Shown here: piece by piece, positions 2,021 through 35,184 of the stretch | Layout: every line of letters starts with the position of its first letter | Numbering within the stretch: the first letter of the stretch is position 1 | Virus record (IMG/VR): IMGVR_UViG_3300017679_000010 | Coordinates: 1 to 37,388 of that record | Length of the DNA: 37,388 bases | Origin: a virus | Direction: 5' to 3' (one strand) | Notes under the pieces: generated by a model | What the model saw: only the letters and a program-made list of their open reading frames with translations | What the model was told of the DNA's origin: nothing | Databases searched by the model: none | Translations under genes and position numbers: made by a program

Positions 2021-5000
2021 GACACTTCCACCCAGCTTTCGCCCAAGGTCGTGCTCTCGAAGCGTCGCACACCATCGATCACAAAGACCAGGGTTTCGTG
2101 CGCATCGCCGGCGAACTCCAGTCCGCCGCGCACTTCATCTGTGGTGACAATGACACCGAGGTCCTCAAGCGTTCCCCCCTTGGTCATCCGCCGATAAGCT
2201 CGGAAGTCGCCCGATGACCACACCAAGGTGATCTCCACGCCCGAAGAAGGATGAGTGGCAATCGCCACCGCGGTGCCGCCCATCATTACGCTTGGCTCAC
2301 CCCAAGAGCGGCCATGGTCACCGGAGTAGTGCTCTTGAACGACGCCATCCAGGCACAGAACCACCCTGAGCGCTCCGCATGGGTGCCAGGCAACTTGCGC
2401 ATCAGTGACGCCCTCAGCGTCAACCACAATTGCTTCATACGAGGTGCCCTTGGCGTCGAACACCCAGGACGTCACCTGAGTCTCGCGCACAAAGACCGCG
2501 CACACCTGGCCGAGAGGCATCCTGCACAGATGGACGCCCCCGCCAACCTCCGCCGCGATCTCTTCGAGCTGTGAGTAGAAGCCATGCCACGGTCGGCCAC
2601 TGGCCCAGCTGCGCGCCCCGGTCTTCAGCCGCCAGGCCAAGGTCTCTGATCCATCCACAGGCTCGGAGTGCTCTGTGAGGAACCAGCCGGCCGGAGCTAC
2701 CGCATCCGCTGTCACTTTGATGCCGATAGAGTTGTGCAGGTCGAGCTTGGCGCCGCTGGAGATGTACCGGCGTGGCTCTTGCACCCAGCTGATGACCTCC
2801 ATGCCGTAGGTGCCGGTCTCTGCGAAGGTCGAAAGGTTGCGCGTCTTAGCCGGGAACGTCGGCACCGGGGGCACTTCCGCGAGGGTGTTCACCAAGGCCA
2901 CCGGGAGCGTTCTGGCAGTGACAGGGGGCAAGGGGAAGGCAATCGTGCCGCGGTCAATGGCGCCCACGCTCTGCCCTTCCTGAGCATCGAACCGGGCCAC
3001 CAGCTCTGCGGCCTCGCCATCGTTGTAGAACAGCCCCTCTGCCATCATCCGCATGGTGCGCATGGCGTCAATGATCGTGCTCTTGTAGCCCAGCGCGCGC
3101 ACGTCCGGGTGGAAGATCGTGCCTGATACCGGGTCGTGCCAGTCGAGGTTGGCCCACCGAGGGCCAGGGCCATCCGCATAGAGCCATGCAGCGTGCGCAG
3201 CGGTGTTCCAGACCAGCTCCGGCACCTCTGGCGAAGTGAGGAGCCTGATATGGGGCAGGAGCACCGGGTCTTCATCATCGATGATGTCGAACTCGCAGCG
3301 GAGGCGCCTTGGAGTTCGGCCGGTGAGGAGCGAGAATAGCGTGGCTCGCTCCGGATCGCCCATCATGAAGGTGGAGATACCAGTTGGTTGAAGATCCGCG
3401 CCCTGGTCGCTGATGTAGAGCGCGCCGTGATCTTGAGCCCAATCGCCGGCGTACTTCGCCTGTGGGCCGATGGGGAGCCGGTAATCCTCGCCCTCGGTCG
3501 TGAATCCATCGCCCGGCACCAACTCGATGAGCTGACGTTCGCCGTCCCGCCCCACGGTGTACCAGCGGGCCGCAGATACGTTGGTGGTGGTCCACCTCGC
3601 TTCGATGCGATCGGCAAAGGCCGCCAGCAGATAGGGGAAGTGATCAAAGTCCGCAACGTTGAGCTCGAAAGCAATCGTCGTGGCGTCCGCATCTGGCGTG
3701 AGTTCAATCCCCGTCGGGCCTACGTCAATGGTGCAATTCTCACCCACGCCGTAGAGCGTTTCGGAGCGTTCATCGAAGGTGATCTCTTCGGGGAGCACGG
3801 ACTCTCGCACTTGGAACCGTGAGACGCCAACCCAGTCGAGGCCGTCACGGTCACGCCCGGTGCCCGCTTTGAAGAAGGCATCCAGGAACGGCGTGTGGCC
3901 ACTCTCTTCCAGGGGGCACGAGATGAAATGGTTCTTGGTCTGGGCGTCTTCTTCTTCGGGCAAGTCCTCATGCGTAAGGTGCTGCATCCGCACGAGCCGG
4001 TGGTAGTCCTCATAAGGCGCCGGCCCGCCATCAATCAGCCAGTCGAACCGCGCGTAAGCCAGCGACCAGAACGGCGATGCGATGTAGTTCACATAGCGCA
4101 CCAAGGGCTCAAGGTGGTGGATGTAGCCCGCCATCTGCGGGTTCTGCGTCAGGTTCTGAACTGTGTGGGGGAAGTAGACGCCGATGCTCTCCACATCGCT
4201 ATCGGTGTAGGCCGGGTCATCGTTACAAGCCGTTGCAGGGCTCGACGAGATGCCCCGCGCCCGAGTGGCCACCATCGGTGCATAGACCGGCGTGGACCAA
4301 GGGTCTTCGATGATGTTCGAGCCCGAGCGCACCACCGAGAGCATCTGAGTGAAGCTTGGGTGGACTTCCTCAATCACTTCCTCATTGCCGCCTGGCTTGG
4401 GGAGCACGTTCGGGCCGAGAGCCCACACCCGCTCAGACCTGGCCTCTGTCTTCGGGAAACCGAAGCGAAGCCACATGGCCGCATAGTCATCGGGAATTAG
4501 CCGCCGCACCGCCCGCGAGAGGTCAGGCACCAGCATCACGCGCCCGTTGCAGGAAATGCCCTCAAGCTCAGCCGGAGCCGCTGCGGAGCCCGGAGGGATC
4601 GGACACCCGGCCCGAAGAGAAGCCGCGCTGGAATCGAGGTTCAGCAGATCGCCCCATGTGCGGGTGGCCACCACAATGCCGGCCGTCGAAAGACCAAAGG
4701 GAGCCGTACCCACAATCGGCTCGGTGATCGTGGGAAGAGTGACCGGGAGGTCTTCCCAGCCACTCCCCTCATCGAACCGCCAGCCGCCCCGGACTTCATG
4801 CGTCATGGTCGCTGTATGGTTGTAGTCACCAGGAACGCCGCCCGCGCCCGCGAGCGCGTTTCCGAATACGTCAGCCGGGATGCCGCAGACCGGAATCCAT
4901 GAAGGGCCGAGGCCGGTGCCGTTGAAGGTCGCGCCCCCCAGCGAGGCCTGGAAAGAGCCGTTCGTCCAGATCTCGATGTCATCCACCGTCATGCGCCAGG

Positions 5001-11235: not shown

Positions 11236-11673
11236 TTAGCTCTGGGGCACCGAGAGCATGACTCGGTACTCAGTCACCAGATGCCGGAAGATTCGAGAGC
11301 CGTCAACTGACACCGCTTTCCGCTCTCCCCTTCGCTCGCACGTCAGCGTAAACCCTTCTTTCACGCCCTTGGCCTGGTGAAGCAGCTGCCCCACGCGTTC
11401 GGCCACCCCATAGGGCGGGATTTCCCCGTTCGAGAAGGAATAGACCATCAGCATCGCATCACACATCAGTCGCTGGCCCTGGGCGTTGATGTCGCCCATC
11501 TGCGGGATGTCGAAAGCCACCGCGGGATACTCGGTCTGGGCAGGCGCCAACCGCCCTGCGTAGATCGCGGGATCTGTTCCGTTCGGGATTGTGGCCAGCA
11601 GCGAAACCAGTTGTGCGTCTTCCGAGAGCGTGTCGTAAACCCATCGCTCGATGGCCTGGAGTTCACTTGCCAC
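11236..11673 (-). CDS. Tail terminator/completion protein (DUF3168-like)
   Basis: The protein has 145 aa and starts at GTG with AGAGGG about 9 nt upstream; it overlaps the preceding gene by 11 bp. The pattern of an N-terminal helix with DTLSEDAQLVSLL, then IYAGRLAPAQTEYPAVAF, then VAERVGQLLHQA and a long beta hairpin fits the DUF3168/gpU-like tail terminator family. These proteins cap the growing tail tube and join it to the head-tail connector. Gene order (gp10-like, terminator, tube) agrees. I am fairly sure of the family but the exact role is inferred. Confidence 0.78.
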   Translation of the reverse strand: MASELQAIERWVYDTLSEDAQLVSLLATIPNGTDPAIYAGRLAPAQTEYPAVAFDIPQMGDINAQGQRLMCDAMLMVYSFSNGEIPPYGVAERVGQLLHQAKGVKEGFTLTCERRGERKAVSVDGSRIFRHLVTEYRVMLSVPQS

Positions 11674-12118
11674 GCTTCATTGCCCTCTTGATCGCTCGGT
11701 CCACTTCTTGGGGGAAGATTCGGCCCTCGAGCTGATTGGCGGCCCTTCTCATGTAGAACTGCCCAGGCACATGCAGCGTGCCTCCGTCCTTGAGTTGCCT
11801 GGTGGTGCCGTACTCGACGTGAGTCGCATAATCCGTCCCCGTGGCCGTGATCGCCTCGTAAGGGTCACGCGGCCGCTCGGATGTGACGAAGGTTGCCGTG
11901 GGCCGGAAGGATGCCCCGCCGACGTGCGCTCCGCGTCCGAAGATGATGGTGATGATGCTGCTGCGAAGCAGCCCTGTGTCCACCGGTGCCGCCATCTTGG
12001 CGACGGCCTCTGTTCGAAACGCCGCAATGCGAACTGCATTCTGCAATTCTTCATCAAGGTGCTCGACCAGGCCATCGAGCTCCGGAATCTTCATTTCCAC
12101 GAATAGCTCAGGGATCAC
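11663..12118 (-). CDS. HK97 gp10-like head-tail/minor tail component
   Basis: I place the start at GTG 12118: it forms a GTGA overlap with the upstream stop and has a perfect GGAGG 5 nt before it. This gives 151 aa; a longer form from 12157 would overlap its neighbour more and has no better ribosome site. The segments AAPVDTGLLRSSI, DYATHVEYGT and FYMRRAA are the standard signature of the HK97-gp10-like family. Members lie between the head-closure gene and the tail terminator and help join tail to head. Confidence 0.85.
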   Translation of the reverse strand: MIPELFVEMKIPELDGLVEHLDEELQNAVRIAAFRTEAVAKMAAPVDTGLLRSSIITIIFGRGAHVGGASFRPTATFVTSERPRDPYEAITATGTDYATHVEYGTTRQLKDGGTLHVPGQFYMRRAANQLEGRIFPQEVDRAIKRAMKRGK

Positions 12119-12474
12119 GATAGCCTCCGGATAACCGCTCTGCCCGCTGTTTGCCACTCCTGCGGATCTTCGACGGAATCGACTTCATAAATCAGGCCGT
12201 TCACCTTCACCTGGTCTGCCGGCGTGATCGTGAGCGCCTTGGGGTAGGTGAGCTGGTATCGAGCGCGCGCGATCGGTACTGGCTCGATGTCCGCAACCTC
12301 ATCCCCTTCCCTGTGCATGATCAGGTGGCATGGGTGTGCAGCAGACCAGGTGTCCGTGCTCTGGATGTGCCCCTCTGCCGTGGCACTCGACGTCCGGGTG
12401 AGCAGGCGCAGCTCATCGGGCATGGCCGACTCCTGGGCGGCCGCCATCCAGGCCACATCACTCGCTGATAACAA
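12115..12474 (-). CDS. Head closure/connector protein (putative)
   Basis: The start is TTG at 12474, with CGGAGGAAG giving a strong ribosome site 6 nt upstream; this gives 119 aa. In-frame GTG 12456 and ATG 12447 are downstream alternatives but lack ribosome sites. The C-terminal half is a small beta domain (KVNGLIYEVDSVEDPQEW), typical of gp16/gpFII-like head closure proteins whose role is to plug the connector before tail joining. It lies between the adaptor-like gene and the gp10-like gene, and overlaps the adaptor-like gene by 17 bp. Function is inferred from order and pattern. Confidence 0.65.
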   Translation of the reverse strand: MLSASDVAWMAAAQESAMPDELRLLTRTSSATAEGHIQSTDTWSAAHPCHLIMHREGDEVADIEPVPIARARYQLTYPKALTITPADQVKVNGLIYEVDSVEDPQEWQTAGRAVIRRLS

Positions 12475-12826
12475 CGACTTCCTCCGGCGCGGTCAATTCC
12501 AGTTCCACTCCCGACATGCGCCGCTTCCTCGCCTCATTGGCCATCTTGCGGAACCGCTCAGGCCGGTCCGACAGATCGAACTTCGAGCCATCACGAGAGA
12601 AGGTCACCTGGTTTGAACAGAGAGCAGCCTTGCGTTCATAGATCAAGGCTTCAGCTAGATTGAGGTCCCACGTGGGCACCCAGTCTGTATCAGCAGGTGC
12701 GCGGCCAGCGCTATCCGCCAGCTTGCACTGGCCGAGGAAGGTCTCTACGTTGGCATTCGTGACCACCGGCTCTTGGTCGGCGGCTGTGGCCAGCACAAGG
12801 TAGTCGCGAGCGGCAGCAAGGGTCAC
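12458..12826 (-). CDS. Putative head-tail adaptor, 122 aa
   Basis: A GTG-started protein of 122 aa with no convincing ribosome site. It is helical at both ends: an N-terminal segment of LAAARDYLVLA type, a middle region with WDLNLAEALIYERKAAL, then basic RPERFRKMANEARKRR. Phage gp6/gp15-like adaptors are small helical proteins in this exact place, forming a ring under the portal. I infer an adaptor role but do not recognise a named family. It is the first gene after the AT-rich cargo gene, whose end is 59 bp upstream. Confidence 0.55.
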   Translation of the reverse strand: MTLAAARDYLVLATAADQEPVVTNANVETFLGQCKLADSAGRAPADTDWVPTWDLNLAEALIYERKAALCSNQVTFSRDGSKFDLSDRPERFRKMANEARKRRMSGVELELTAPEEVVVISE

Positions 12827-12885
12827 AGACGCCGATGGAGCAATTCACCCTAAGAGTCAATATCAGCCCGACTTTGCCAACTTCA

Positions 12886-13869
12886 CTACAAGCCCAACTT
12901 GGTTCGAAGCAACTGTGAAGCTAATTCCATGTCCCACCATGGAATCCACCTCGAGTCGTCTGACACCCTACCCTGAGGGTCCGCAGACATGCTGTCAAAG
13001 AAGACCTGCTGGAAAAGCCTCTCTGAAATCTTCACGTCCGCTGGAATTTTAGCATGGGACCGCAAAATACCCTGTTGTTGCAGAACGCTTTGGCAAAACC
13101 TAATCAGATTATTTACATTGTTACCTGGGACATCTACCAACACTCTCTTTCGATCTAACTTGAACAAGCTTCCGCTTATTGCGCCAGTCTCATCCCACTC
13201 GCCAAGCACCCATGTACTCGTTACCAATAGCGTTGACCCATCGACGCATTTGGCCTTGAGATCAACCTCTAAAAATGAAGAATGCCCGCCATGAATACCA
13301 ACAGCTAAAAAGTCGCCCCACGGCACTTCGATGGAGTGTGTCGAAGTGCCATTCGAGAGGACGTCCTGCGGGTTAGAATCGCTTATAATTAAGTCAGATT
13401 CTGCATACTCTTGTGTGACAACCCTTAAAGAACCAGTTACGCATAACCTTTTGGCTACCAGACATGCTGTATGGTTGCTGAAATTTGATATCTCCACCCA
13501 AATCTCTGCAGTTGTTGAGCGCTTGATGACTCGCACACCTACAACGGAGATGTTTTGTAGATTAGAAACAAAAAGCAATTCAGATTGCCGTTGTTGATCA
13601 ACTGAAAGATCAAGTTGATTGTTTGCAATTTCCCCTTGCCGAGCAGCGATGTCGTTACTTGCCTTAGCGAGGACATTTTGCTTGTCCATAAGCGTCACTT
13701 GATCAAGAATTAGCTGCGATTGCCTCTCCATAACCTTTGTTTGCTCTCGCATAACTTGACCTTGTTTATGCATCAAAACGCTCTGAACCACCACGAACAC
13801 CAGCGCCCCAAGCGATCCGACCAATGTCCAAATTTCGATTGTGATTGAAAAGAAATCCAGGACTCTCAT
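12886..13869 (-). CDS. AT-rich cargo (moron-like) membrane protein of unknown function
   Basis: The protein has 327 aa and an ATG start. By eye, it has one N-terminal membrane helix (about 10-33, LVGSLGALVFVVVQSVL). A Gln/Met-rich helical, probably coiled-coil stretch follows (about 34-95, HKQGQVMREQTKVMERQSQ). Next is a beta-rich domain (about 97-240), then a helical C-terminus with paired Trp (WIPWWDMEL). The coding region is strikingly AT-rich beside its neighbours: 13561-13620 holds 19 G+C of 60, against 43 of 60 at 14401-14460. A terminator stands just upstream and a promoter-like pair precedes the ATG, so it is likely an independently expressed, recently acquired gene in the head-tail cluster. 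A cell-surface or exclusion role is possible but not shown. Confidence 0.75.
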   Translation of the reverse strand: MRVLDFFSITIEIWTLVGSLGALVFVVVQSVLMHKQGQVMREQTKVMERQSQLILDQVTLMDKQNVLAKASNDIAARQGEIANNQLDLSVDQQRQSELLFVSNLQNISVVGVRVIKRSTTAEIWVEISNFSNHTACLVAKRLCVTGSLRVVTQEYAESDLIISDSNPQDVLSNGTSTHSIEVPWGDFLAVGIHGGHSSFLEVDLKAKCVDGSTLLVTSTWVLGEWDETGAISGSLFKLDRKRVLVDVPGNNVNNLIRFCQSVLQQQGILRSHAKIPADVKISERLFQQVFFDSMSADPQGRVSDDSRWIPWWDMELASQLLRTKLGL

Positions 13870-13875
13870 TGGTTC

Positions 13876-13904
13876 AATCTACCCAAGTCTTAGCAGATCA
13901 ACAA
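13876..13904 (-). promoter_or_regulatory. Possible promoter of the cargo gene (near-leaderless)
   Basis: On the minus strand TTGTTG (13904-13899) and TAGATT (13881-13876) are separated by 17 bp. Transcription would start about at the A of the ATG at 13869, so the message would be leaderless or nearly so. No ribosome site precedes the ATG, which is consistent. The match to consensus is modest. Confidence 0.35.
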
Positions 13905-13916
13905 GCCTGCGCCACG

Positions 13917-13946
13917 AAAAAGCCTCCCCGGACAAGTGGGGAGGCT
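13917..13946 (-). terminator. Rho-independent terminator after the capsid block
   Basis: A perfect 9-bp stem (AGCCTCCCC/GGGGAGGCT, 13921-13929 with 13938-13946) with an 8-nt loop is followed on the minus strand by TTTTT. It lies between the HeH protein gene and the cargo gene. It would stop or reduce leftward transcription from the capsid genes before the cargo gene. Late tail transcription must read through it or restart. Confidence 0.85.
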
Positions 13947-13975
13947 CTGGAGATGAACACGCGTCGGCTGGGTGG

Positions 13976-14338
13976 TTACGGTTGTGGTGCCCCCTCGCCA
14001 TTCGCCTTGGCGGGATCTGCGTTGTCATTGCTGTCGGCCTGCTTGGCCTTCTCAGCGGTTTTCTTAGCGAGGTCCAGAAGCTGGTCCTTGTTCAGGCCCT
14101 TGAGCTCCTTGCTGTCAATGTTCTTGGACTCGAGGTGTGCGACCAGGTCGGCCTTCGTCATCCCAGCGAACTCGCTCGGAGTTTCCAAAGCGGGGGCAGG
14201 TGACCCCTCGCCCTTCGCTTTGGGTGCTTCAGGGACCTCGTAGTACCCATCCTTCATCAGGATCGCGGCCCGCTTTGCGTCCTGGGGGGAGTCCCCCAGG
14301 ATCACAGTGCGCGTACCTTCTCGGTTCTTCAGCTTCAT
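13976..14338 (-). CDS. HeH/Rho-N-like domain protein next to capsid genes
   Basis: The protein has 120 aa and an ATG start. The N-terminal 40 residues are a small basic-to-neutral segment (TVILGDSPQDAKRAAILM). A Pro/Ala/Glu linker follows, then a three-helix motif at about 58-95 (MTKADLVAHLESKNID, then LNKDQLLDLAKK). This matches the HeH/LEM/Rho-N-type fold common in phage head-region proteins. The tail is Ala/Asp-rich. Such proteins are often found just after the capsid gene, with poorly known roles in head completion or DNA contact. The terminator follows 30 bp after its stop. Confidence 0.65.
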   Translation of the reverse strand: MKLKNREGTRTVILGDSPQDAKRAAILMKDGYYEVPEAPKAKGEGSPAPALETPSEFAGMTKADLVAHLESKNIDSKELKGLNKDQLLDLAKKTAEKAKQADSNDNADPAKANGEGAPQP

Positions 14339-14340
14339 GG

Positions 14341-14721
14341 TTAGTTCACCGGAACGGCATAGACGTCCACCTTGCCCGCAAGCCCAGTGGGCGTGCCAGA
14401 CGGGGTGAAGGTCAGCCAGTGGCCCACCGGCCAGTACACGTAGGCCCTGCCGTTGGCCCCCGCATTCAGCTTGTTGTTAAGCCGACCCGGCGTCGCAAGG
14501 CTCTGCCCGTCCATCAGATTGTCCGCCGAGATCGCAGTGGCTGCGATACCCGCATCGAACGTTTGTCCGGCAACAGCCCCGGTGATGCTGAGCGAGGCCA
14601 CGTCCACCAGCAGCGGCGTGTCGCCATCGTTCTGAATGGCCAGCATCCCGCCAGCGCCGGCCACAGCCTTCAGGGTGAACTGAAGCCGCCCTTCGGCGTA
14701 GTAATGAGCGAGTGCGCTCAT
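14341..14721 (-). CDS. Putative capsid decoration/accessory head protein
   Basis: The start ATG 14721 overlaps the capsid gene stop (TAATG), giving 126 aa; a longer reading to 14799 would lie inside the capsid gene and is rejected. The sequence is beta-rich with many Gly, Ala and Thr residues (VASLSITGAVAGQTF, NNKLNAGANGRAYVYW) and no Cys. It is the first gene after the major capsid gene. Position and composition suggest a capsid-surface or accessory protein, but no family is recognised. Confidence 0.55.
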   Translation of the reverse strand: MSALAHYYAEGRLQFTLKAVAGAGGMLAIQNDGDTPLLVDVASLSITGAVAGQTFDAGIAATAISADNLMDGQSLATPGRLNNKLNAGANGRAYVYWPVGHWLTFTPSGTPTGLAGKVDVYAVPVN

Positions 14722-15677
14722 TAGGCCACCAACACCCCGAAGTGGTAACGGGTCGAAGCGTCCGGGTTCACCAGATTCGTCGGGTTCGGCTCTGCCCACC
14801 CAAGCCGCATGATGACCTGCAGGGCCGCCATGTTCTGCTGAGCGAGGTTGTACAGAATCGAACCGTCAGGTCGCTGAATCGTAGCTTCGGTAAGGACCCG
14901 GAACTCCATGTCCTGACGAATCGAGTAGACAGCATTCTCCCACTCCCCAGCAATCAGCAGTGCAGATGCATCAACCGCACGCAGATTCTTCTGGAAGTAG
15001 TGAGGGACACCGTCGAGCTCGAAGTTCGTTGCTCCCTGGACGCCGCCCTGGCCATTGACGCTCTTGAAGATTGGGTTCCCTTGAGAGTCACGCAGGCCGC
15101 GAAGCTTGCCCTTCATGGTCAGCAGAGACACAGCACCAGTGACGCCGTATCCATTTTCTTCAACCTTGGACCAGACGCCTTCCTCGCCCAAGAGCGCATC
15201 GTAGATGTCCTTGTTCGCAGCCACAAAGGTGCTGAGGTCCACGTCAGTTCCAGCAGCTACCGCCTTGGTAACGATCCCTTCAGGCCAGGTCTCCGGGCGC
15301 TCCGTTCCGTAAAACACGGCTCGGTCCACCTTTTGCATCAGAGCCTGCACAATTGCCGGGCGGGTTTGCCCCCAAATGTCATATTCCGCATCTGCCAGAA
15401 CAGCTCGGGAAATCGGAACGATGACCGCAATCTCTTCGGCTGTAACAAACACGTTCGACCACTGGGTCTTTGTGGTTTGCTGCTGGCCAGTATCAGCCGG
15501 ATTCACAAAGTAGGCCTCCGGGAGGCTACTGAGGACCGGCATGCGCAATTGCGCACTAGTCATGTCCGGTAACCGAGTCGCAAGTTGCATGAAAATGCTG
15601 CTTTCGGTTACGGATTCTGCGATCTGTCTCGATACCTCTTCGGGAATGAGAGACTGGGCGTCGGATCTTGTAATCAT
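14721..15677 (-). CDS. Major capsid protein, HK97 fold
   Basis: The protein has 318 aa and an ATG start. Features typical of HK97-type capsid proteins are the N-terminal segment around SLIPEEVSRQIAESVTESS, the early loop LRMPVLSS, and the spine-helix region WGQTRPAIVQALMQKVDRAVF. The P-domain strand pattern ENAVYSIRQDMEFRVL and the C-terminal strand VIMRLGWAE also fit. There is no long N-terminal delta domain; the separate scaffold gene upstream supplies that function. It assembles the icosahedral head. Upstream in transcription are portal, gp7-like and scaffold genes. Confidence 0.93.
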   Translation of the reverse strand: MITRSDAQSLIPEEVSRQIAESVTESSIFMQLATRLPDMTSAQLRMPVLSSLPEAYFVNPADTGQQQTTKTQWSNVFVTAEEIAVIVPISRAVLADAEYDIWGQTRPAIVQALMQKVDRAVFYGTERPETWPEGIVTKAVAAGTDVDLSTFVAANKDIYDALLGEEGVWSKVEENGYGVTGAVSLLTMKGKLRGLRDSQGNPIFKSVNGQGGVQGATNFELDGVPHYFQKNLRAVDASALLIAGEWENAVYSIRQDMEFRVLTEATIQRPDGSILYNLAQQNMAALQVIMRLGWAEPNPTNLVNPDASTRYHFGVLVA

Positions 15678-15691
15678 GTGATTGAGTTGGG

Positions 15692-16276
15692 TTATTCGAT
15701 CCCTGCAGCCTTTCGGATCATGCTATTCATGTCCCCAGCCGCGGGCGTTTGCTGAGTTCCGCTTCCCGCGTCGCCGCTCCCTCCCGGAGCAGGCTGTTGA
15801 GTGGCAAACAGTTCTGGGAAAGCGCCCTTAATGGCCTCCCAGTTCGGCTTGCCGTTTTGGTCGAAGTGGCCCCCTTCCCGGGCGGCCAAGAATGCAAGGT
15901 GCGAATTGCTACAACCAGCGGCCTGCGCTCCAGCAAGGAACTCCGCGCGCTGATTTGCTTCGCTCAGTTGAGCCAGCAGGCTTCCCACCTGCTTCTCCAT
16001 TTCAGAACCCTTTTCAGCTGCAGCGGCCAGATCCTTGGCCTTCTTTTCGAAGTCCTTTCGCATGGTTCGCTCGCTCTCCGCAGTGGTCTTCAGCCCACGG
16101 ACATGGGCATTGACCAGCTCCTGGTGGGCAGCATCCAACCCCGCGAACCACTGATCGTAAGCCAGCGTGTTCGCAGAGGGGTTCTGAGTGCCGGTGCCAG
16201 CAGCCGGGGCCGGGGGTGTCCCACCACCAGGCGCGCCGTCACTGTTCCGGTAACGTCGATATGCATCTCGCAACAT
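15692..16276 (-). CDS. Scaffold protein
   Basis: I choose ATG 16276, giving 194 aa, because the reading upstream of it lies in the gp7-like gene and looks like an antisense artefact. The sequence has a Pro/Gly/Ala N-terminal region. A long charged coiled coil (about 60-125, MRKDFEKKAKDLAAAAEKG then EMEKQVGSLLAQLSEANQRA) follows. The segment ending in WEAIKGAFPELF is followed by a flexible Gln/Gly/Pro tail. This is the pattern of phage scaffolding proteins encoded just before the capsid gene. It would direct shell assembly and leave the prohead. Confidence 0.85.
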   Translation of the reverse strand: MLRDAYRRYRNSDGAPGGGTPPAPAAGTGTQNPSANTLAYDQWFAGLDAAHQELVNAHVRGLKTTAESERTMRKDFEKKAKDLAAAAEKGSEMEKQVGSLLAQLSEANQRAEFLAGAQAAGCSNSHLAFLAAREGGHFDQNGKPNWEAIKGAFPELFATQQPAPGGSGDAGSGTQQTPAAGDMNSMIRKAAGIE

Positions 16277-16307: not shown

Positions 16308-17354
16308 TCAACGCAGGGCCAAAGATCGCAGCGAGCGCTCCCGCACGGACGGCCCCCAGCGTGGATCATCGAACTCGGCCACGAGGTCTGGCAGAGAGAC
16401 CTGGCCGCTACTGAACGCCTCGTACTTGCCAGGGCCGAGAATGCGGAGCTGGTCACCCTTGCTCAACCGGTCGAAGCGATCAGGGCCGAGGCCAATCCCG
16501 TCCTCATCTTCCAGCGTGAACACTACCGCAGCGGCGCAACGGCATTGAGGGTGGCGATAGAACGGCTGATTGATCGAGTAGAGCCGACCATGCAGAGCCC
16601 AACACACAGGGCAGGTGCGCACGTCGAGGGCCGAGATACGCCGGTACCCCACAGCCCCGAATGGCTCGGCATTCACCTGGTAGTTGAGCAGAGTCGCGTC
16701 TCGGTGGGCGCTTACGATCTCGGTGCGGGCGATGATATCGCTCTTCTGTTTCAGCTCTCGAGCGGCCATCACTATGTCCTCGCCGATTCCGGGCTCTTCG
16801 ACCGCGGTCCGAATCCTGCGGCGAATCGTAGCCGCCACAGTGCGTGGGTTCTGGCCCTGGCCAACGCCCTGGAGAAGACTGTCCTGAACGGCGTCACGAA
16901 GCACGAGGGGGTAGCGTGCAAAGACCTCAGCCAGCGGGCTCCCGTCGCTCATGCGCCCTACCATGTTCTCGAATGCGGCAACTGGCAACCGGTTCCATTC
17001 GGTAGCCACGCGCAGCCGATCAGGGTGTGCTTCGGATGCGAAGTCGAACGCGGCCGCACTTGCCATTGCAACTGCCTCGGCCTGGGCACCCGTGATCAGG
17101 GCGGTTTGCAGATCCGATACCTCGCCCATCTGAATGGCGACCTGGTCAAGCAGCCGCTGGAGCCGTTCAGATCGAATGAGCCACGAGACCGGAGCGTCAC
17201 CAGCCTCCCTGGCCATGTCATCAAACAGGGCCAGTAGCGCCAGGAGCAGAGCATCCTCGAGGTCTTGGTAAGCAGCCTGCATGCCCGCGAGAGCGACGGC
17301 TTCACGCTCGAGGATTCGCCGGCGATAGTCGGCGGCAACCTGTTGAATCGTCAC
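16308..17354 (-). CDS. SPP1 gp7/Mu gpF-like head morphogenesis protein
   Basis: The protein has 348 aa and starts at GTG in a GTGA overlap with the portal stop. The N-terminal half is helical. The conserved block starts around ARTEIVSAHRDA (about 209-220). It continues with a metal-site-like set: CPVC (248-251), the FYRHPQCRC segment with His268, Cys271 and Cys273. This is the known signature of the phage Mu F/SPP1 gp7 family. These minor head proteins bind the portal and affect DNA ejection. Gene order portal, gp7, scaffold, capsid matches SPP1-like phages. Confidence 0.92.
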   Translation of the reverse strand: MTIQQVAADYRRRILEREAVALAGMQAAYQDLEDALLLALLALFDDMAREAGDAPVSWLIRSERLQRLLDQVAIQMGEVSDLQTALITGAQAEAVAMASAAAFDFASEAHPDRLRVATEWNRLPVAAFENMVGRMSDGSPLAEVFARYPLVLRDAVQDSLLQGVGQGQNPRTVAATIRRRIRTAVEEPGIGEDIVMAARELKQKSDIIARTEIVSAHRDATLLNYQVNAEPFGAVGYRRISALDVRTCPVCWALHGRLYSINQPFYRHPQCRCAAAVVFTLEDEDGIGLGPDRFDRLSKGDQLRILGPGKYEAFSSGQVSLPDLVAEFDDPRWGPSVRERSLRSLALR

Positions 17355-18697
17355 GGAAGCTCAGGTGCGCGGGTCAGACGGGCAAAGGCTCGCTCTTCCC
17401 GCTGAAGGGCAGCCGCCTCGGATTGCTGGGCCAGTTCCTTGGCCGTCTCACCATCCACGCCCAGAGCTCTTTGGAAGACCAGATCCTTGGGCGCACCAAG
17501 GCGATCGAGAACCGCGCCCAGCTCCGCTCGCTCCATCTCTGTGACGGGCGACGTGTCACGCCACACCGCATCCACCACCTGGGTGGTCGCAGCCTCGATG
17601 AGATCTTCCCAGACGTTGCCGAAGAAGACCTGACGGTCTTCCACCTTGGTCTGAAGCGGGCTCTCGGTGACGCGAAGGGCCGCGCCGCTCGGCACCTGCC
17701 CCTTCTCACCAAAGAAGTAGGCAGGCACGGAAGAGACTCTGGCAATCTCCATCCGATTGCTCTCTGCCACCGCCAGATTCCCCTGGAACTCGCCCCCCGG
17801 GAGTTGCCCGAATTTGGCGTCTGGATTTCCGGACAGCCATAGTTTCTTGGCCGCCCAGGAGTTGTCCGCCTTCCCTGTTTCTGGGTTAATCGTCGGCTCG
17901 ATGCCCGTGCCGTACCGCTGGGGGTACGCACTTGCTTCCATGCCGACGACGAGGTCATAGAGGCTCTTGTTCAACAGGTCTTGGAGCGGAATCACCGTCA
18001 TCAGCTCGGAAGAACCGAACTCGCCGAGGCCCACCCCATTCGCCCAGTGGAAGACCGGCACGCGGTTGAACTTGTGCACCTGGATGGCTGGCTCGTTATC
18101 TTGGTCGTAAGGAATGAGCGGCGACTTACCGAGGGTGCTGAGTTCCTCCGCCTTGTTGGTCGTGATGAAGCGCAGAATCCGGTCGGCGTAGTAGATCGTG
18201 ATGCGGCGGCGCTTCTTGTTGCCTGTTCCGACCTGCCACGTTTTGACGGCCGCAATCATCTTTTCGCTGTCGCTGTCGTCGTAGATCGGTGCGATCTGCC
18301 ATGGCCTCTGACGGTAGAGGCGCGGGCCACTTCCATCGTTCCACAGGATTGCATAGGCATCGCCGAACTGAACCGCGTCTCGGTGGATCGCTCTTTGCTT
18401 GGCGTCGAAGCGAGAAGCCTTCAAGAAGTCGCCAACAGCTTTGTCCGCCGGCGTAAACCCGCCCACGATCAGGCGCCCCGAGATCGTATCCACCACCAGC
18501 GGGCAGAGGTTGTCACACAGCCGCTGCAGCGCACCCGCAAACCGCTCCCGGAACTCGGGAGACACGTAGTTCATGGGATGCTCGCCGGCGTAATACCGCT
18601 TCAGCTTGCTATAGGTGGAGAGCCGGGATGCGAGCGCATTGATCCCTTCCACGATCTGCGGCCCATGAAGAAGAGAGGCTAGAGTTTGCGCGGCCAC
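17351..18697 (-). CDS. Portal protein (SPP1 gp6 family)
   Basis: The protein has 448 aa with a GTG start; the ribosome site is weak. The pattern includes LKRYYAGEHP near residue 35 and VVDTISGRLIVGGF at about 68. The clip/wing segment has RDAVQFGDAYAILWNDG, and the C-terminal helix region has EDLIEAATTQVVDAVW. This matches the SPP1-type portal family. The portal is the dodecameric ring at one head vertex through which terminase pumps DNA. The gene lies just after TerL, as expected. Confidence 0.92.
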   Translation of the reverse strand: MAAQTLASLLHGPQIVEGINALASRLSTYSKLKRYYAGEHPMNYVSPEFRERFAGALQRLCDNLCPLVVDTISGRLIVGGFTPADKAVGDFLKASRFDAKQRAIHRDAVQFGDAYAILWNDGSGPRLYRQRPWQIAPIYDDSDSEKMIAAVKTWQVGTGNKKRRRITIYYADRILRFITTNKAEELSTLGKSPLIPYDQDNEPAIQVHKFNRVPVFHWANGVGLGEFGSSELMTVIPLQDLLNKSLYDLVVGMEASAYPQRYGTGIEPTINPETGKADNSWAAKKLWLSGNPDAKFGQLPGGEFQGNLAVAESNRMEIARVSSVPAYFFGEKGQVPSGAALRVTESPLQTKVEDRQVFFGNVWEDLIEAATTQVVDAVWRDTSPVTEMERAELGAVLDRLGAPKDLVFQRALGVDGETAKELAQQSEAAALQREERAFARLTRAPELP

Positions 18698-20921: not shown

Positions 20922-21437
20922 TTACTGATTGCCCGGAAGGGCCTCCGGGGTCAACGCCTTCACTGCCTTGCCTTCCGCCCTCTTCAGCCACTTCCCGAGC
21001 TGGCCGAGTACCGGCAGGTCCATCTGAGCCGAGTTGATGAGCACCGAGCGCGCTTCGTGGAGGATCAGGATGGAGAGCACCGTGAGCATCGCCCCGGCCA
21101 CCCCGTCTCGCTTGAGAGTCGGAGTCAGGGCTGCAGCCTGGCTTACTCCCCAGATCACCGCGTAAACGGCCAGGATCGAGCACGAGTAGCCCACCATCTT
21201 GGCCACAGTCCGCCTGAACAAGATGTTCCCATCGAACTTCCCTGCGTACCAAGCGGCTGCGGCTCCAGTCACCAAGTCGAGGAGGAGAAGGGCAACCATC
21301 ACGATGCCACCCACCACCACACTCTCTGAAGGCATGAGCGATGCCAGGCCACCAAGCGTGATGGCGGCCACAAGTTCAGTCGGACCAGCGATCAGCGCCT
21401 TCTTTGTCGCCGCTAGAACCTGGGGGTAAGTGATCAA
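20922..21437 (-). CDS. Holin (phage_holin_4/toxin-secretion holin-like)
   Basis: The protein has 171 aa and starts at TTG in a TTGA overlap with the endolysin stop. By eye there are three to four membrane segments: about 17-34, 40-62 (VVVGGIVMVALLLLDLVTG), 84-104 and 113-130. The loop after the second, with DLVTG and a nearby KFDGN, followed by RRTVAKM, is the signature of this holin family. The C-terminus is Lys-rich and cytoplasmic. It would form the lesions that release endolysin. Pairing with the adjacent CHAP endolysin supports the call. Confidence 0.85.
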   Translation of the reverse strand: MITYPQVLAATKKALIAGPTELVAAITLGGLASLMPSESVVVGGIVMVALLLLDLVTGAAAAWYAGKFDGNILFRRTVAKMVGYSCSILAVYAVIWGVSQAAALTPTLKRDGVAGAMLTVLSILILHEARSVLINSAQMDLPVLGQLGKWLKRAEGKAVKALTPEALPGNQ

Positions 21438-22030
21438 GCGCCAACCCCCAAGGAATCAGGAATCTCGAGCCATCCAAACCGGGTGAATGCAGCAAGCAAG
21501 GACCAGTTCCGCTTCCTTCGCATGACGAATCGGCCTTCCCTGCTGCCGGCCGCGTTGGTGTTGCCTTCGATGGTCTCGACCGTGAAGGCTCCCAGCACCT
21601 TGGTGACAGCGAAGATGTGCCCTTTCCCGTTGTGACTGTTCCAAAGTGCGAACACGCCACGCTTGATGCCGAGCCATTTCGAGCGCAACAGCTTGTTCTC
21701 CTTGGCCCAGGCCCACCAGAAGTAGGTGCTCGCCGCATTGTCCGGGAGTTTGCTGCGGTCCGCACCTGCTTCCAGAAGTGCCCAGGTGAGGAGAGCTGCG
21801 CACCATGGGGCAGGCTGATTAAGCCCAGCCGCATTGAGGTACTTCTGCACTTCCGGCCCCCAGTTGCTCGGGTTCTCTTCCACACCCACCTGCGAATCGA
21901 GCACCATGAGCGTGCGCTCACTGAGACTGGCCTCGCGCCAGTTCTGCCTTGCCCACGCCTTGAGATACGAGGGGGCAGGCTTTTCACGCCATGTCGTTTG
22001 CGGCATCTCCCTTCGCGTGGGGGCTGGCAT
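21434..22030 (-). CDS. CHAP-domain endolysin
   Basis: I use ATG 22030, giving 198 aa; a second ATG at 22006 is possible. The reading beyond 22030 overlaps the fibre gene and is rejected. The CHAP-like core shows the nucleophile in APWCAALLTW (Cys77), the catalytic His in NGKGHIFAV (His138) and the acidic/polar partner in VETIEGNTN (Glu155/Asn157). These enzymes cut peptidoglycan peptide or amide bonds. No signal peptide or binding domain is seen, so export would depend on the holin. The N-terminal 50 residues are helical and may help targeting. Confidence 0.85.
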   Translation of the reverse strand: MPAPTRREMPQTTWREKPAPSYLKAWARQNWREASLSERTLMVLDSQVGVEENPSNWGPEVQKYLNAAGLNQPAPWCAALLTWALLEAGADRSKLPDNAASTYFWWAWAKENKLLRSKWLGIKRGVFALWNSHNGKGHIFAVTKVLGAFTVETIEGNTNAAGSREGRFVMRRKRNWSLLAAFTRFGWLEIPDSLGVGA

Positions 22031-22044
22031 CGTGGCCGTCAACC

Positions 22045-23052
22045 TTAGAAATCCGTTTCGAGATAGAACCGATAGAAGTCCATCACCACCGCAAGGGCCG
22101 TGCCGCCGTTGTTGGCGTAGGCGTGCCATGCCAGCAGGGTCGTACTTGCGGGCATGTCCGTGGTGATCGTGCCTGTGGCCACCGCCCCCGTTACGAGGTT
22201 GGTGACGCGCCATCCAATGCGGTCGCTGTTGGGGGCCGCGAACAGGTCGAAGTCGTAGATGGCCGTGGTGCTGTTCGCCGGGAACTCTGAACCCAGGTTG
22301 ATCTTCGTGCAGGTGCCCGCGCCGTCGTTGTGCATGACCTGCATGTTCGTGTCCGCAGAGTCGTTGCCGAGCAGAATGCAGTTCGTGAGCGCAGAGGGCT
22401 GTTGCGTGGTCGCGGTGGCACCAGTAGAACTCCATAGCCCCACTGCGGTGCGCTGGTTGGCTACGGCCGTGTTCATGCCCCAACGGGTGCGGGTGAAGAA
22501 TCCACCAAAGCCTGCGAAGTCGCCACGGTAGCACTGGAACGCCGCCACGCGAAGTTCAGAGGCAGAGTTGGCCGTCGCCGCTGATGTGACGATGGCCCGC
22601 CGCACACCTTCCTTGAGGTTGCTTGTTGCCGTGATCGCGGGGTGAGAGACGGTACCGACCGCCGTCGGAGCCACCACGCCAAGAAGGCTAAACGCCGTCG
22701 TAGCAGACGGGGCAATGATCTGAACCCCGTTGGCGAAGATGGCGGGCTGGAGCGGGCTGTCGAGGCCGCTGGTGCCCTGGAAGAACGGGAGCCGACGCCC
22801 GCCGCGTTGCATCGTGAAGAGCTGCAGGCCCGACGAAGGCACTGAGGGCTTCTCGGTTTGGTCCACCAGCGAGAGAACCGGCACCGTGGGCGAGAACTCC
22901 CGGTATCCCAGCGAGTTCCATGCGTCCGTACCGTTCCCGATCTTCATCAGCTCAGTGTCAGTCTCGAAGCCGATCTCACCCGCGCCTAGAACCGGGTTGT
23001 TGGCCGTCCAATTTTCCGCAGTGTCGCGGCGTTGTTGCATCCGAATGGGCAT
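22045..23052 (-). CDS. Tail fibre with Mtd-like N-terminal domain
   Basis: The protein has 335 aa and an ATG start, 1 bp after the collagen-like gene's stop. The N-terminal 48 residues (MPIRMQQRRDTAENWTANN, then EIGFETDTELMKIGNG) are the Mtd/hyaluronidase-type N-terminal domain found at the start of many phage fibres. The rest is beta-rich with conserved Trp and Gly, ending VVMDFYRFYLETDF. It likely forms the receptor-binding fibre tip, with the collagen-like protein as its stalk. No enzyme motif is seen. Confidence 0.82.
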   Translation of the reverse strand: MPIRMQQRRDTAENWTANNPVLGAGEIGFETDTELMKIGNGTDAWNSLGYREFSPTVPVLSLVDQTEKPSVPSSGLQLFTMQRGGRRLPFFQGTSGLDSPLQPAIFANGVQIIAPSATTAFSLLGVVAPTAVGTVSHPAITATSNLKEGVRRAIVTSAATANSASELRVAAFQCYRGDFAGFGGFFTRTRWGMNTAVANQRTAVGLWSSTGATATTQQPSALTNCILLGNDSADTNMQVMHNDGAGTCTKINLGSEFPANSTTAIYDFDLFAAPNSDRIGWRVTNLVTGAVATGTITTDMPASTTLLAWHAYANNGGTALAVVMDFYRFYLETDF

Positions 23053-23053
23053 G

Positions 23054-23653
23054 TTATGAAGTTCCTCCGTCGATCACGTCATCCGGGGTGTAGGCCGACG
23101 ACGCCGTACCCCCGTCGAATTGGCCCACGCTGGCCAAAGAATCAAGCCAATGGGGCTCGGTGCCAACGAAGCCGTTAGCCACCGCCACCTCGTAAGCTGA
23201 GAGCCCTTGCTCGCCCTGCGGCCCTTCGGGGCCTTCTGGGCCTGTTGCACCCGTGGGTCCAGCCGGGCCTGTCGCGCCAGCCGGACCTTGGGGACCTGTC
23301 GCGCCCGTGGGGCCGGGGTCGCCTTGCAAGCCTCGCTCGCCTTGAGGGCCTTGCGGACCAGTGGCCCCTGTTGGACCAGCCGGGCCAGTGGCACCTGTCG
23401 CACCCGTTGCGCCGGTCGCACCCGTGGGGCCCGCGGGGCCAGTATTTCCCTGGGGACCAGGAGGGCCAGCCGGGCCGGTGGCTCCGGTCGGGCCTGCGGG
23501 ACCCGCAGCACCAGCGAGGCCAGTTGCGCCCGTGTCGCCTTTGGGGCCTCTCGGGCCAACCAGGGAGTTCAGTTGCACGTCCCGCGTCGGAATGGTGATT
23601 TCGACGTTGTAAACCGGCGCGTCAGCTGTAAGCTCTACCGTGATCTCGCTCAT
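23054..23653 (-). CDS. Collagen-like tail fibre stalk
   Basis: The protein has 199 aa. A 32-residue beta N-terminus is followed by 39 unbroken Gly-X-Y triplets (Gly33 to Gly150), rich in GPT, GAT and GPA, which would form a trimeric collagen helix about 33 nm long. The C-terminal segment [20 protein letters not shown] is a cap motif seen after collagen repeats in many phage and prophage proteins. The next gene is the Mtd-like fibre. The nucleotide sequence of the repeat is low-complexity on the minus strand, so copy number may vary between strains. Confidence 0.9.
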
Positions 23654-32234: not shown

Positions 32235-32263
32235 GGCTCCCCACGGGGAGCCTTCTTCATTTT
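32235..32263 (+). terminator. Rho-independent terminator of the repressor
   Basis: GGCTCCC/GGGAGCC closes a CACG loop (32235-32252) and is followed by a T-rich tract. It lies between the repressor and the convergent SGNH gene and would keep repressor transcription from entering that gene. Confidence 0.75.
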
Positions 32264-33075
32264 CAAGGGTCGAGTCGGCGGCGGCGCTTTAAGGCGAGCG
32301 CAGCCAAGCCAGCCATTGCGACCATAGACGCAGGCTCTGGAACAGCCTGCAGTGACTGCTCCCACTGCGCAGCGATCTTGCCGTAACCAGTGGGATTCGG
32401 GTGGACGAAATCAGCGATGTCTGTGTCCGGATTCAGCGCATTGAACATGTCCACGTAGTAGATCGAGCGCCCAGCAAGCTGGCGCTCAGACACGATCTGC
32501 GGCACCATCACCGAGATGTTGGTGGCGTGAGCAAGGTGGTGGAGGTAGTTCGCTCCAAAGCTGCTGTTGGCCTTCGGGATCGAAGCCATGTGAACCTGCA
32601 CACTCGGGTCCACCGCGAAAATGGCATCAAGCAACTCGTTGTATCGAGCACGCATTCCAGTCGGGTTGTTCTTGTACTCGGCTGAATCGTTTGTGCCCGC
32701 CATGAGGAGTACGACGTCGGGCTGGTACGTCGTCATCCACTGGGTCACGTTGCCTCGATCAGGCAGCGCAGCCTGCCCAAAAGTGAGCGAAGCGACGTTC
32801 CATCCCGGCTGGCCAGCGTGCGGCCGGTCCGCTGCGACTAGCGAAGTCGCCCCCTGGGTGCGAGGCCCTACCGGTGTGAATGTGAAGTTGTCGGCACGCA
32901 GGGCACTGTACAACTGGCCACGGTAACCACCTACCTGCGGCGTTCCTGTTCCTTCGGTGATCGAATCGCCCAGCGGCATGATCCTACCGAGGTCAACAAC
33001 CGTAGCGCCGGAGATGGCGGCGCAAGCAAAAGCCAGAGTGGCCAACGCGGCTCTCATGCGTGCCAGTCTACTCAT
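32263..33075 (-). CDS. Secreted SGNH hydrolase with PEP-CTERM sorting signal
   Basis: ATG 33075 is used, giving 270 aa; ATG 33057 is an alternative and both keep the signal peptide (ATLAFACAAISGA). The SGNH set is complete: GDS 36-38 (Ser38), the Gly block in QPGW (89-92), GTND 127-130, and DFVHPN with Asp222 and His225. The protein ends in VPEPAS, a hydrophobic stretch and RRRRLDP, a typical PEP-CTERM signal for exosortase. The enzyme would be exported and processed at the surface of the lysogen, probably deacylating surface glycans. Divergent from the rightward operon, it is a likely lysogeny cargo gene. Confidence 0.85.
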   Translation of the reverse strand: MSRLARMRAALATLAFACAAISGATVVDLGRIMPLGDSITEGTGTPQVGGYRGQLYSALRADNFTFTPVGPRTQGATSLVAADRPHAGQPGWNVASLTFGQAALPDRGNVTQWMTTYQPDVVLLMAGTNDSAEYKNNPTGMRARYNELLDAIFAVDPSVQVHMASIPKANSSFGANYLHHLAHATNISVMVPQIVSERQLAGRSIYYVDMFNALNPDTDIADFVHPNPTGYGKIAAQWEQSLQAVPEPASMVAMAGLAALALKRRRRLDP

Positions 33076-33221
33076 TTCCTCGGCCAGAGGAAGGGATGGC
33101 AGGGCAAAGCCAGCAAATGTACGAGACCCTTGGTGGGCCGGGGCGCAGCAGCACGCTTGGCCTCGCAAACGCAACCTGGCGGCAACTCGCCCCGAATGGG
33201 CCATTGGAAACAAATTTATTC

Positions 33222-33262
33222 TGGTATTGACTTGGTATACCAATAATGGTACAGTGTTGGTA
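33222..33262. promoter_or_regulatory. Repressor operator cluster, right site
   Basis: TACCA-ATAA-TGGTA at 33238-33251 matches the left operator. TGGTA half-sites also stand at 33222, 33233 and 33258 (spacings 11, 14, 11). TTGGTATACCAA (33232-33243) is a perfect palindrome. The cluster covers the spacer and -10 of the rightward promoter, so bound repressor would block it. Confidence 0.7.
33227..33255 (+). promoter_or_regulatory. Rightward early promoter
   Basis: TTGACT (33227-33232), a 17-bp spacer and TACAGT (33250-33255) give a sigma-70-like promoter. The start near 33262 precedes the 55-aa membrane gene by about 28 nt. Operator sites overlap it. Confidence 0.7.
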
Positions 33263-33289
33263 TAGCCCTGGCACGGGCTATGGAGACAA

Positions 33290-33457
33290 ATGAACAAGTA
33301 CACGGAAGGATTGCTGAGCGGCCTCGGAGCCGCCTTCTTCCTCGCCTACATGGCCTGGTGTATCAGCACTGGCATCCAGCGCGACCAGGAATACCTGGAA
33401 GCCAACGACGCCCGAATCGAGCGCGAAATCGAACGCCGCGCGGGGTGGAGCAAGTGA
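33290..33457 (+). CDS. 55-aa membrane protein, first gene of the rightward operon
   Basis: ATG 33290 follows GGAG 5 nt upstream; a frame with an earlier ATG is in another reading frame and was rejected. The product has one membrane helix (about 8-25, LLSGLGAAFFLAYMAWCIS) and a charged helical tail (EANDARIEREIERRAGW). It is the first gene under the repressor-controlled promoter and is coupled to the next by a GTGA overlap. Function is unknown. Confidence 0.75.
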   Translation: MNKYTEGLLSGLGAAFFLAYMAWCISTGIQRDQEYLEANDARIEREIERRAGWSK

Positions 33458-33717
33458 GCCGTTGCCCCGAAGGCTGTGGAGTCGAGCTCGTGGAGGAAAC
33501 GGTGGACGTAGTGGACCAAGGATTCCACGCTGGCGACCCGCACGCCCCTACGCATGAAGCGCAATGGCTCCGGTGCCCCTCCTGCGGTTACGAGTGCGAA
33601 GCGGAAGCTTTCCTACAGCCTTTCGAGCCGGACCCTGCGAAGGGGCCTGCCCCGACCGAGGATGAGTGGGCGAAGGCGACGGGCTTCGATGACATCTTTG
33701 CGGAGGTGGGCGCGTGA
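33454..33717 (+). CDS. Small zinc-ribbon-like protein, 87 aa
   Basis: GTG 33454 in a GTGA overlap with the membrane gene; the longer reading from 33280 lies over the membrane gene and was rejected. Two Cys pairs (CPEGC near the start and CPSCGYEC at about 46-53) suggest a zinc ribbon. The rest is acidic. It may bind nucleic acid or protein, but no family is recognised. Confidence 0.75.
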   Translation: MSRCPEGCGVELVEETVDVVDQGFHAGDPHAPTHEAQWLRCPSCGYECEAEAFLQPFEPDPAKGPAPTEDEWAKATGFDDIFAEVGA

Positions 33718-33974
33718 GCGGCCTCCGCGCGCACTTCGCCAGCGCCATGCGGCGTGACCGCAATGAGGTGCTGAACAAGCGGATCGAAGCTGACATCGCC
33801 ACGGTGCTCGCTTCCACTCCGACCAAGAAGGATGAGCTGGACTCGCTCAAGGCTTTGGAGAAGACCCTCCGCGAGGCGTACTTCCGCATCAACGGCTTGG
33901 TCGAGAGCATGGAGACCATGGACGTCGAGCAGATGGACCGGGCTTACGAAACGATCATGGAGGGTGCTCTCTAA
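33714..33974 (+). CDS. Helical early protein with C-terminal QMD-IMEGA segment, 86 aa
   Basis: GTG start in a GTGA overlap with the preceding stop, with GGAGG 8 nt upstream. The protein is mainly helical, possibly coiled coil (DELDSLKALEKTLREAYFRI). Its last 16 residues, VEQMDRAYETIMEGAL, closely match those of the next gene (11 of 16 identical). The TAATG junction couples it to that gene. Function is unknown. Confidence 0.8.
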   Translation: MSGLRAHFASAMRRDRNEVLNKRIEADIATVLASTPTKKDELDSLKALEKTLREAYFRINGLVESMETMDVEQMDRAYETIMEGAL

Positions 33975-34579
33975 TGGGCACCCGCAACCTCACCCTGGTC
34001 CGATTGGGCGGCAAATACAAAGTCGCCCAATACGGGCAATACGACGGGTATCCGGAAGCAGTTGGCGCCGGGATCGTGGAGGTGCTCAAGACGTACCCGC
34101 GGGAGCAAATCGAGACGGCCATCGCCGCTTGCGCTTTCGCAACCCCCGATGACATCGAGACCCGGTGGGCGGCAGCTCACGCCAGGGAGGACCTTTACGT
34201 TTCTAAGTGGCCTTGGCTCAGCCGGTCGTGCGCCGGAGACGACTTGCTCAGGCTCTTGATGGGAGAGACCTTGCGGCAAATGTTTAGCCGCTCGATCTGG
34301 CGAGGGCCGGTTGATGTCATTCGCGACCAGCGCGCGTTTGCCAAGGACGGCCTGTTCTGTGAGTACTGCTACCTGATCGATTTCGACCGCAACGTGTTCG
34401 AGATCTACATTAGTGGGAGCCAGGCCGTAGAGGGCACGGTTCCTCCGGAGTTTGAAGACACCTCCAACGCGGATGGCTATCACCCGGTCAAGCTGGCCGG
34501 TGCCTGGCCGATCGATGAACTTCCTTCGGTCGACCAAATGGACAAAGCCTGCGAGAAGATCATGGAGGGCGCGGCCTGA
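33924..34579 (+). repeat. Shared C-terminal segment in two consecutive genes
   Basis: The ends of the genes at 33924-33974 and 34529-34579 encode the same 16-residue pattern V-[ED]-QMD-[RK]-A-[YC]-E-[TK]-IMEGA. The DNA is partly conserved too (ATCATGGAGGG before each stop), and GGAGGG may serve as the ribosome site for the next gene. The span given runs from the first copy to the second. Confidence 0.7.
33974..34579 (+). CDS. GTRNLTLV-family protein of unknown function, 201 aa
   Basis: The ATG is in a TAATG junction with the preceding stop. The N-terminus GTRNLTLVRLGGKYKVAQYG is followed by QYDGYPEAVG; proteins with this opening are found in several phages and bacteria, without known function. 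A helical middle contains WPWLSRSCAGDD. The end carries the QMD-IMEGA segment shared with the preceding gene. No catalytic motif is seen. Confidence 0.85.
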   Translation: MGTRNLTLVRLGGKYKVAQYGQYDGYPEAVGAGIVEVLKTYPREQIETAIAACAFATPDDIETRWAAAHAREDLYVSKWPWLSRSCAGDDLLRLLMGETLRQMFSRSIWRGPVDVIRDQRAFAKDGLFCEYCYLIDFDRNVFEIYISGSQAVEGTVPPEFEDTSNADGYHPVKLAGAWPIDELPSVDQMDKACEKIMEGAA

Positions 34580-35184
34580 TGCCCGCCCCCATCATCTGGC
34601 CGACCCGGTACGTCGCCATCGACCTCGAAACTTCGGGGTTGAACTCCACTTACGACCAGATCCTCCAGGTGGCGGTGGTGCCAATGGAGTCTGGGCAGAT
34701 CATCGGCGATCCGTACTACACCCGGGTCCTCCCTGGCTCCAAGTTCCGGATCTCGCGTGAAGCTCTGGAAACCCAAGTGGGCGAGACAGACGGTGATGCG
34801 CTCAAGGCTTGGTGGGAGAAGCTGCATAGCGAGGGCCTCGAGAGCCGTGCGGCCATGCAAGGCCTCATCAATTGGGCACGGGACGGCGAGTACCTGAACC
34901 TGCCCGTCGTAGCGCACAACGCCTGCTTTGATTGGGGCTTCTTCAGCCAGTGGGTTTACAACTGGCGAGTGATGTGCGGGCTCCGCTCGCCCTTGGGGCC
35001 GATGTGGCTTTGCACCATGGAGATTGCCCAGGGACACCCCCACTTCAAAGGCGCGAAGTCCTTCTCCCTCGACCTCGTAACGCAGGCACTCGGATTGCCT
35101 CTTCGACCGAAAGGCCATGACGCCATGCAGGACGCAATCCTGGCGGGCCAGGTCTACCACGCCCTCACCGGAGGGTCACTCTAA
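34579..35184 (+). CDS. DEDDh 3'-5' exonuclease (DnaQ-like)
   Basis: The ATG is in a TGATG junction. All exonuclease residues are present: Asp15 and Glu17 (AIDLETSG), Asp118 (VAHNACFDWGF), then His180 and Asp185 (KGHDAMQDAIL). It has 201 aa, the size of a stand-alone exonuclease. Together with the following Gp157/Gam-like and SSB-like genes it suggests recombination or repair of phage ends, or degradation of host nucleic acid. The polymerase it would serve is not in the window. Confidence 0.9.
   Translation: MPAPIIWPTRYVAIDLETSGLNSTYDQILQVAVVPMESGQIIGDPYYTRVLPGSKFRISREALETQVGETDGDALKAWWEKLHSEGLESRAAMQGLINWARDGEYLNLPVVAHNACFDWGFFSQWVYNWRVMCGLRSPLGPMWLCTMEIAQGHPHFKGAKSFSLDLVTQALGLPLRPKGHDAMQDAILAGQVYHALTGGSL

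Follow-up and report, generated by a model that had tools for sequence, protein, structure and literature searches.

The cargo gene, a 327-codon frame on the minus strand between the head and neck genes of a viral genome, is best explained, with a probability of about one half, as a moron that occupies a cargo slot of variable content and whose inner-membrane product would be expressed from the prophage and benefit lysogens. The window, that is the whole stretch of DNA analysed, is positions 1-37,388 of the IMG/VR record IMGVR_UViG_3300017679_000010. A single foreign gene would have dropped into a permissive slot at the border between transcription units, with the terminator that ends the head-gene unit on one side and the first of the neck genes on the other. 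The product would reside in the inner membrane, its helix and beta region being cytoplasmic, would be made at least partly from the prophage and would give lysogens an advantage. The moron reading is favoured because there are empty sites in relatives, the content of the slot varies, relatives lack an orthologue and the composition is foreign; against the full explanation stand the lack of a convincing promoter of the gene's own, of an integrase and of a homologue of known function in the databases searched. Morons are a known kind of gene and what is new is a member with an orphan product. The features discussed are listed here in window coordinates.

12458-12826, minus: neck connector (adaptor) gene, downstream of the slot, with a fold match to the phiCD508 neck protein
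12867-13916, no strand: inserted segment, approximate, ~1.05 kb, right edge +/- ~25 nt, defined against the empty site of L117 and L118
12886-13869, minus: cargo (moron) gene, 327 aa, 46% G+C
12907-12984, minus: connector-like C-terminal segment of the cargo, aa 296-321, 46% identical to connector aa 37-62
13126-13551, minus: predicted beta-strand region, aa 107-248, low confidence
13552-13770, minus: long Q-rich helix, aa 34-106, following the membrane helix in the AlphaFold model
13771-13848, minus: predicted transmembrane helix, aa 8-33, KD 2.1, confident helix, N-out/C-in from charges
13876-13904, minus: weak promoter-like pair TTGTTG-17 nt-TAGATT, 7/12 matches, 6 nt before the ATG
13917-13948, minus: intrinsic terminator of the upstream head genes, a strong hairpin with U-run, kept in relatives without the cargo
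13976-14338, minus: small head-side gene, 120 aa, upstream of the slot, assigned by synteny, with a weak Pfam Ish1 match below cut-off
14721-15677, minus: HK97-type capsid gene, upstream of the slot
17351-18697, minus: portal gene, upstream of the slot
20922-22534: holin (Phage_holin_4_1) and CHAP-domain genes, far from the cargo

The cargo gene and its slot

The cargo frame is stop-free for 330 codons, whereas 2000 shuffled versions of the insert gave no run longer than 248, and its G+C differs between codon positions (0.53, 0.37 and 0.49), so it is regarded as a genuine coding frame. Its composition and codon usage are foreign. As the earlier note had it, the gene is AT-rich relative to its neighbours: its G+C of 46% lies 9.5 standard deviations under that of other windows of the same size in the record (61.6%, sd 1.6%; z -9.5), its GC3 is 0.49 against 0.65-0.77 in the neighbouring genes, and its codon-usage fit is the lowest, by a wide margin, among the 33 phage genes scored. 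The location given in that note, between capsid and connector genes, was also borne out, with capsid-side genes upstream (on the same strand there are also a Mu F-like minor head gene, a scaffold-like gene and two small genes) and the neck connector downstream, followed by head-closure and further neck genes.

Comparison was made with three related records in which the flanking genes are fully syntenic, one of them also present as partial copies: L117 (IMGVR_UViG_3300003968_000002), L118 (IMGVR_UViG_3300042433_000143) and L004 (IMGVR_UViG_3300034010_000639). L117 and L118 are near-identical at the slot locus, which is empty in both, the head gene being followed by the terminator, ~50 nt and then the connector gene; the cargo of the window is thus located between two genes that adjoin each other there. 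The slot of L004 is occupied by a 98-aa gene that does not resemble the cargo or belong to a known family, and the genes flanking the slot are 64-85% identical between the window and L004. A search of the whole records of the three relatives (G001-G003) found no cargo orthologue, the sole match being the connector gene, and no terminal repeats suggestive of a transposon or other mobile element were found around the insert. On these alignments the cargo gene is very probably an insertion. The proposal of a moron taken over from another genome has good support in the empty sites in two records and the different gene in the third, together with the foreign composition and the lack of an orthologue in any relative's record; orthologues in all relatives with matched G+C and gene order were looked for and the opposite was found. 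The three states (empty, small gene and membrane-protein gene) at the head/neck terminator make a clean comparison, and the slot is therefore usable for finding accessory genes in this phage group.

The 98-aa orphan gene of L004 (4668-4964) has a G+C of 54% in a locus of 63%, is without an obvious ribosome site; the -10-like TACCTT stands a few bases ahead of its ATG. Distant phages are also variable between capsid and connector, and this variation was left out of the slot evidence because it consists largely of decoration-type genes. One such phage, L125, carries three low-G+C genes between capsid and connector (2511-4951), two of which resemble, by eye, a sugar-transfer gene and a methyltransferase-like gene.

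Morons have been described as genes of foreign composition inserted between genes that are adjacent in relatives, some of them prophage-expressed (PMC4378225). The cargo is like the lambdoid and Mu-like examples in being a single insertion between the adjacent genes of relatives, with differing composition and no evident recombinase site, and unlike them in that its terminator lies upstream and comes from the head unit of the phage, none being seen downstream, and in that its putative own promoter is weak (PMC4378225).

No credible relative of the cargo was found in Pfam, PHROGs, NCBIfam, PADLOC, PDB sequences, phages or plasmids, in IMG/VR (searched with the whole protein and with its inner part), in GTDB contigs by a pattern scan, which was also what covered the Gram-negative groups of the likely host, or among the genomes of two phyla, that of the Acidobacteria MAG (297 genomes) and that of the Chloroflexi MAG (301). 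Known exclusion and defence families gave no match in PADLOC, PHROGs or Pfam, and the lone NCBIfam match (small_EYxxD) was below cut-off. The product is, as judged from these collections, an orphan. A match in one of the 297 Acidobacteria genomes (E 0.003, 25% identity) was taken as chance, as was an IMG/VR match to L003 in which a 20-residue stretch (297-316) shares 'WIPWWDME' with an unrelated region. That region of L003 (1-1406) has a reverse transcriptase-like gene with the WIPWWDME-containing sequence before it; it is unrelated to the cargo and is possibly a diversity-generating element.

Terminator and expression signals

The hairpin at 13917-13948 folds at -26.3 kcal/mol over a 61-nt piece (z -3.3) and the terminator is ~90% identical over 49 nt between the window and L004. 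A search of IMG/VR with the terminator pattern returned only these related records and one partial copy. The strong terminator reported on the 5' side of the gene is therefore real as a hairpin, but it is not part of the cargo, being present in relatives without it, and because of this conservation it is assigned to the head-gene unit.

The other expression signals proposed in the earlier note were not confirmed. The promoter-like pair has only seven of 12 matches, and a standard, stricter promoter scan of 11500-16000 found no promoter on the minus strand. With 6 nt separating the -10 from the ATG, the geometry fits a leaderless start, but the promoter score is at chance level. The missing ribosome site is not distinctive, as many other genes of the phage are also without an obvious one, and support for independent transcription, by promoter or leaderless start, is not above chance. 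No minus-strand terminator-like site downstream of the cargo was reported by a scan that also missed the clear upstream hairpin. The cargo could be read simply along with the late operon.

The predicted product and its connector-like end

The single N-terminal membrane helix described previously agrees with the hydrophobic stretch predicted at aa 8-33. Within 20 residues after this helix there are four K/R and two D/E, and before it one K/R and two D/E; this excess of K/R on the C-terminal side predicts, by the positive-inside rule, a cytoplasmic C-terminal part, and suggests that the bulk of the protein is cytoplasmic and not surface-exposed. An AlphaFold model, which was built without relatives, had a mean pLDDT of 45 and was too poor for a fold search. 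It is confident only for one long helix, from residue 2 to ~85, and its strands begin after residue 109. Strands are thus predicted where a beta domain had been proposed, but at low confidence only, while the coiled coil of the earlier note was not upheld, the heptad periodicity of the helix being not significant (p ~0.12).

An AlphaFold model of the downstream connector was built from 22 sequences and matched the phiCD508 neck protein (Foldseek prob 0.99, Z 9.4 over 83 residues), with weaker fold matches to the neck proteins T4 gp13, Sf14 and Bas63. Cargo residues 296-321 (ADPQGRVSDDSRWIPWWDMELASQLL) align with connector residues 37-62 (ADSAGRAPADTDWVPTWDLNLAEALI), 12 of the 26 positions being identical, with an E-value of 1e-6 pairwise and 6.5e-4 genome-wide. 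Three connector queries were used to rank the segment among 3567 decoy ORFs and 3000 shuffles. The window connector and a three-sequence profile (score 16.3, the best shuffle reaching 7.7) both placed the cargo at the top, and a profile of the closest relatives placed it second, after a frame from another phage that is itself perhaps a distant connector. With a broad 23-member connector profile it was the best non-connector (E 0.13). The cargo retains G, R, W, P, D and A where these are conserved in the connector. Only cargo aa 295-321 align, to positions 36-62 of the 122 in the connector profile, and a complete connector domain is absent from the cargo on that alignment. In the connector model the matching part comprises a loop and the initial half of a helix rather than a folding unit. 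The neck-type fold of T4 gp13 and phiCD508 is thus shared by the downstream gene, and the last ~30 residues of the cargo resemble the loop and helix start of such a connector, the remainder of which it lacks.

As DNA identity in the segment is only 50%, it is not a recent copy of the connector, and most simply the connector-like end would be a recombination relic of a neck gene from a related or another phage. An exact 12-nt repeat, CAGACATGCTGT, occurs twice within the cargo gene (12984-12995 and 13459-13470), and one copy sits exactly where the connector-like segment begins, a possible microhomology at a fusion point.

Lifestyle, host and possible functions

The record encodes an S24/HTH repressor, with a 77% identical counterpart in one relative (G001), which suggests that the phage is temperate; no integrase was found in the record, which is possibly incomplete. 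Prophage morons of this sort have repeatedly proved to be anti-phage factors, and HK97 gp15 is an exclusion protein that blocks DNA injection, as is SieA. In P22, SieA acts in exclusion at the inner membrane (PMC10883804). SieA (PMC10883804) and HK97 gp15 are like the cargo in being prophage-type accessory genes and the cargo product is also predicted to be in the inner membrane, whereas SieA has ~160 aa and three membrane helices and the cargo has 327 aa, one helix and no match to a known family. By analogy with membrane morons such as SieA, superinfection exclusion acting at the inner membrane, through a block to DNA entry or to a later step, may tentatively be named as the single likeliest benefit, with other envelope or host-fitness roles taking most of the remaining probability.

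A less likely reading, and still a substantial one, is lysogenic conversion apart from phage exclusion, the gene being either a host-benefiting envelope or stress function or a neutral passenger. It draws on the foreign origin of the cargo and on a second candidate conversion gene beside the repressor (a GDSL lipase with a PEP-CTERM motif), but there is no homologue with such a function in the databases searched, and the intact 327-codon frame speaks against a decayed passenger. Rather unlikely is a late phage function, in which read-through of the terminator with the late operon would give a membrane-anchored product for lysis or virion release, e.g. a spanin-like or accessory lysis protein. 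The cargo is on the same strand inside the late gene cluster, is without a strong promoter of its own and has a long helix after its N-terminal membrane helix, all of which would suit such a role; the strong terminator nevertheless stands between it and the head genes, the holin and CHAP-domain genes at 20922-22534 are distant, relatives manage without the cargo, and the charges place its C-terminal part in the cytoplasm, which is wrong for a spanin. That the gene is ancestral and was lost in the relatives is very improbable, for although only three related records bear on this, two of them near-identical at the locus, the foreign composition and codon usage and a slot that may be empty, hold another gene or hold the cargo all argue for gain.

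The connector-like end raises a further reading, which is improbable, namely that the prophage-encoded, membrane-anchored protein is a decoy whose connector piece sequesters a partner of the connector and so blocks virion assembly by competing relatives. Consistent with this are the ranking of the segment, which is the best non-connector match for two connector queries out of three and the second best for the remaining one, its retention of the connector's conserved positions, and the precedent of Tab, a prophage moron that blocks tail assembly (PMC10884400). Tab of phage JBD26 has 83 aa and targets the tape measure protein, and it shows that assembly, too, can be blocked by morons located among virion genes (PMC10884400). 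The cargo resembles Tab as a moron among virion genes and would, as a decoy, likewise act on assembly; the opposite strand, own promoter, tape measure target and dedicated anti-Tab partner of Tab are none of them seen for the cargo. Moreover the segment is just 26 residues of loop and half helix with an E-value of ~6.5e-4 genome-wide and of 0.13 for the broad family profile, a mechanism of self-protection would be required, and a relic accounts for the segment equally well.

Several other genes of the phage were also noted. The GDSL/SGNH lipase gene (32263-33303, minus), whose product has a C-terminal PEP-CTERM sorting motif, has the second most unusual codon usage and is a candidate lysogenic conversion gene; an 83% identical copy in another relative (G002, 33367-34239) has in-frame TGA codons. 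At 22045-23052 (minus) lies the gene for a tail protein whose N-terminus carries an Mtd (major tropism determinant) domain, adjoining a collagen-repeat protein (23054-23653); as no reverse transcriptase was found there is no sign of a diversity-generating element there. The early region (35184-37016, plus) encodes a Mu Gam-like protein and a phrog_874 protein, the closest of the latter's listed matches being from Pseudomonas, Burkholderia and Serratia phages, and the early-gene matches to Pseudomonas and Burkholderia phages make a Gram-negative host likely.
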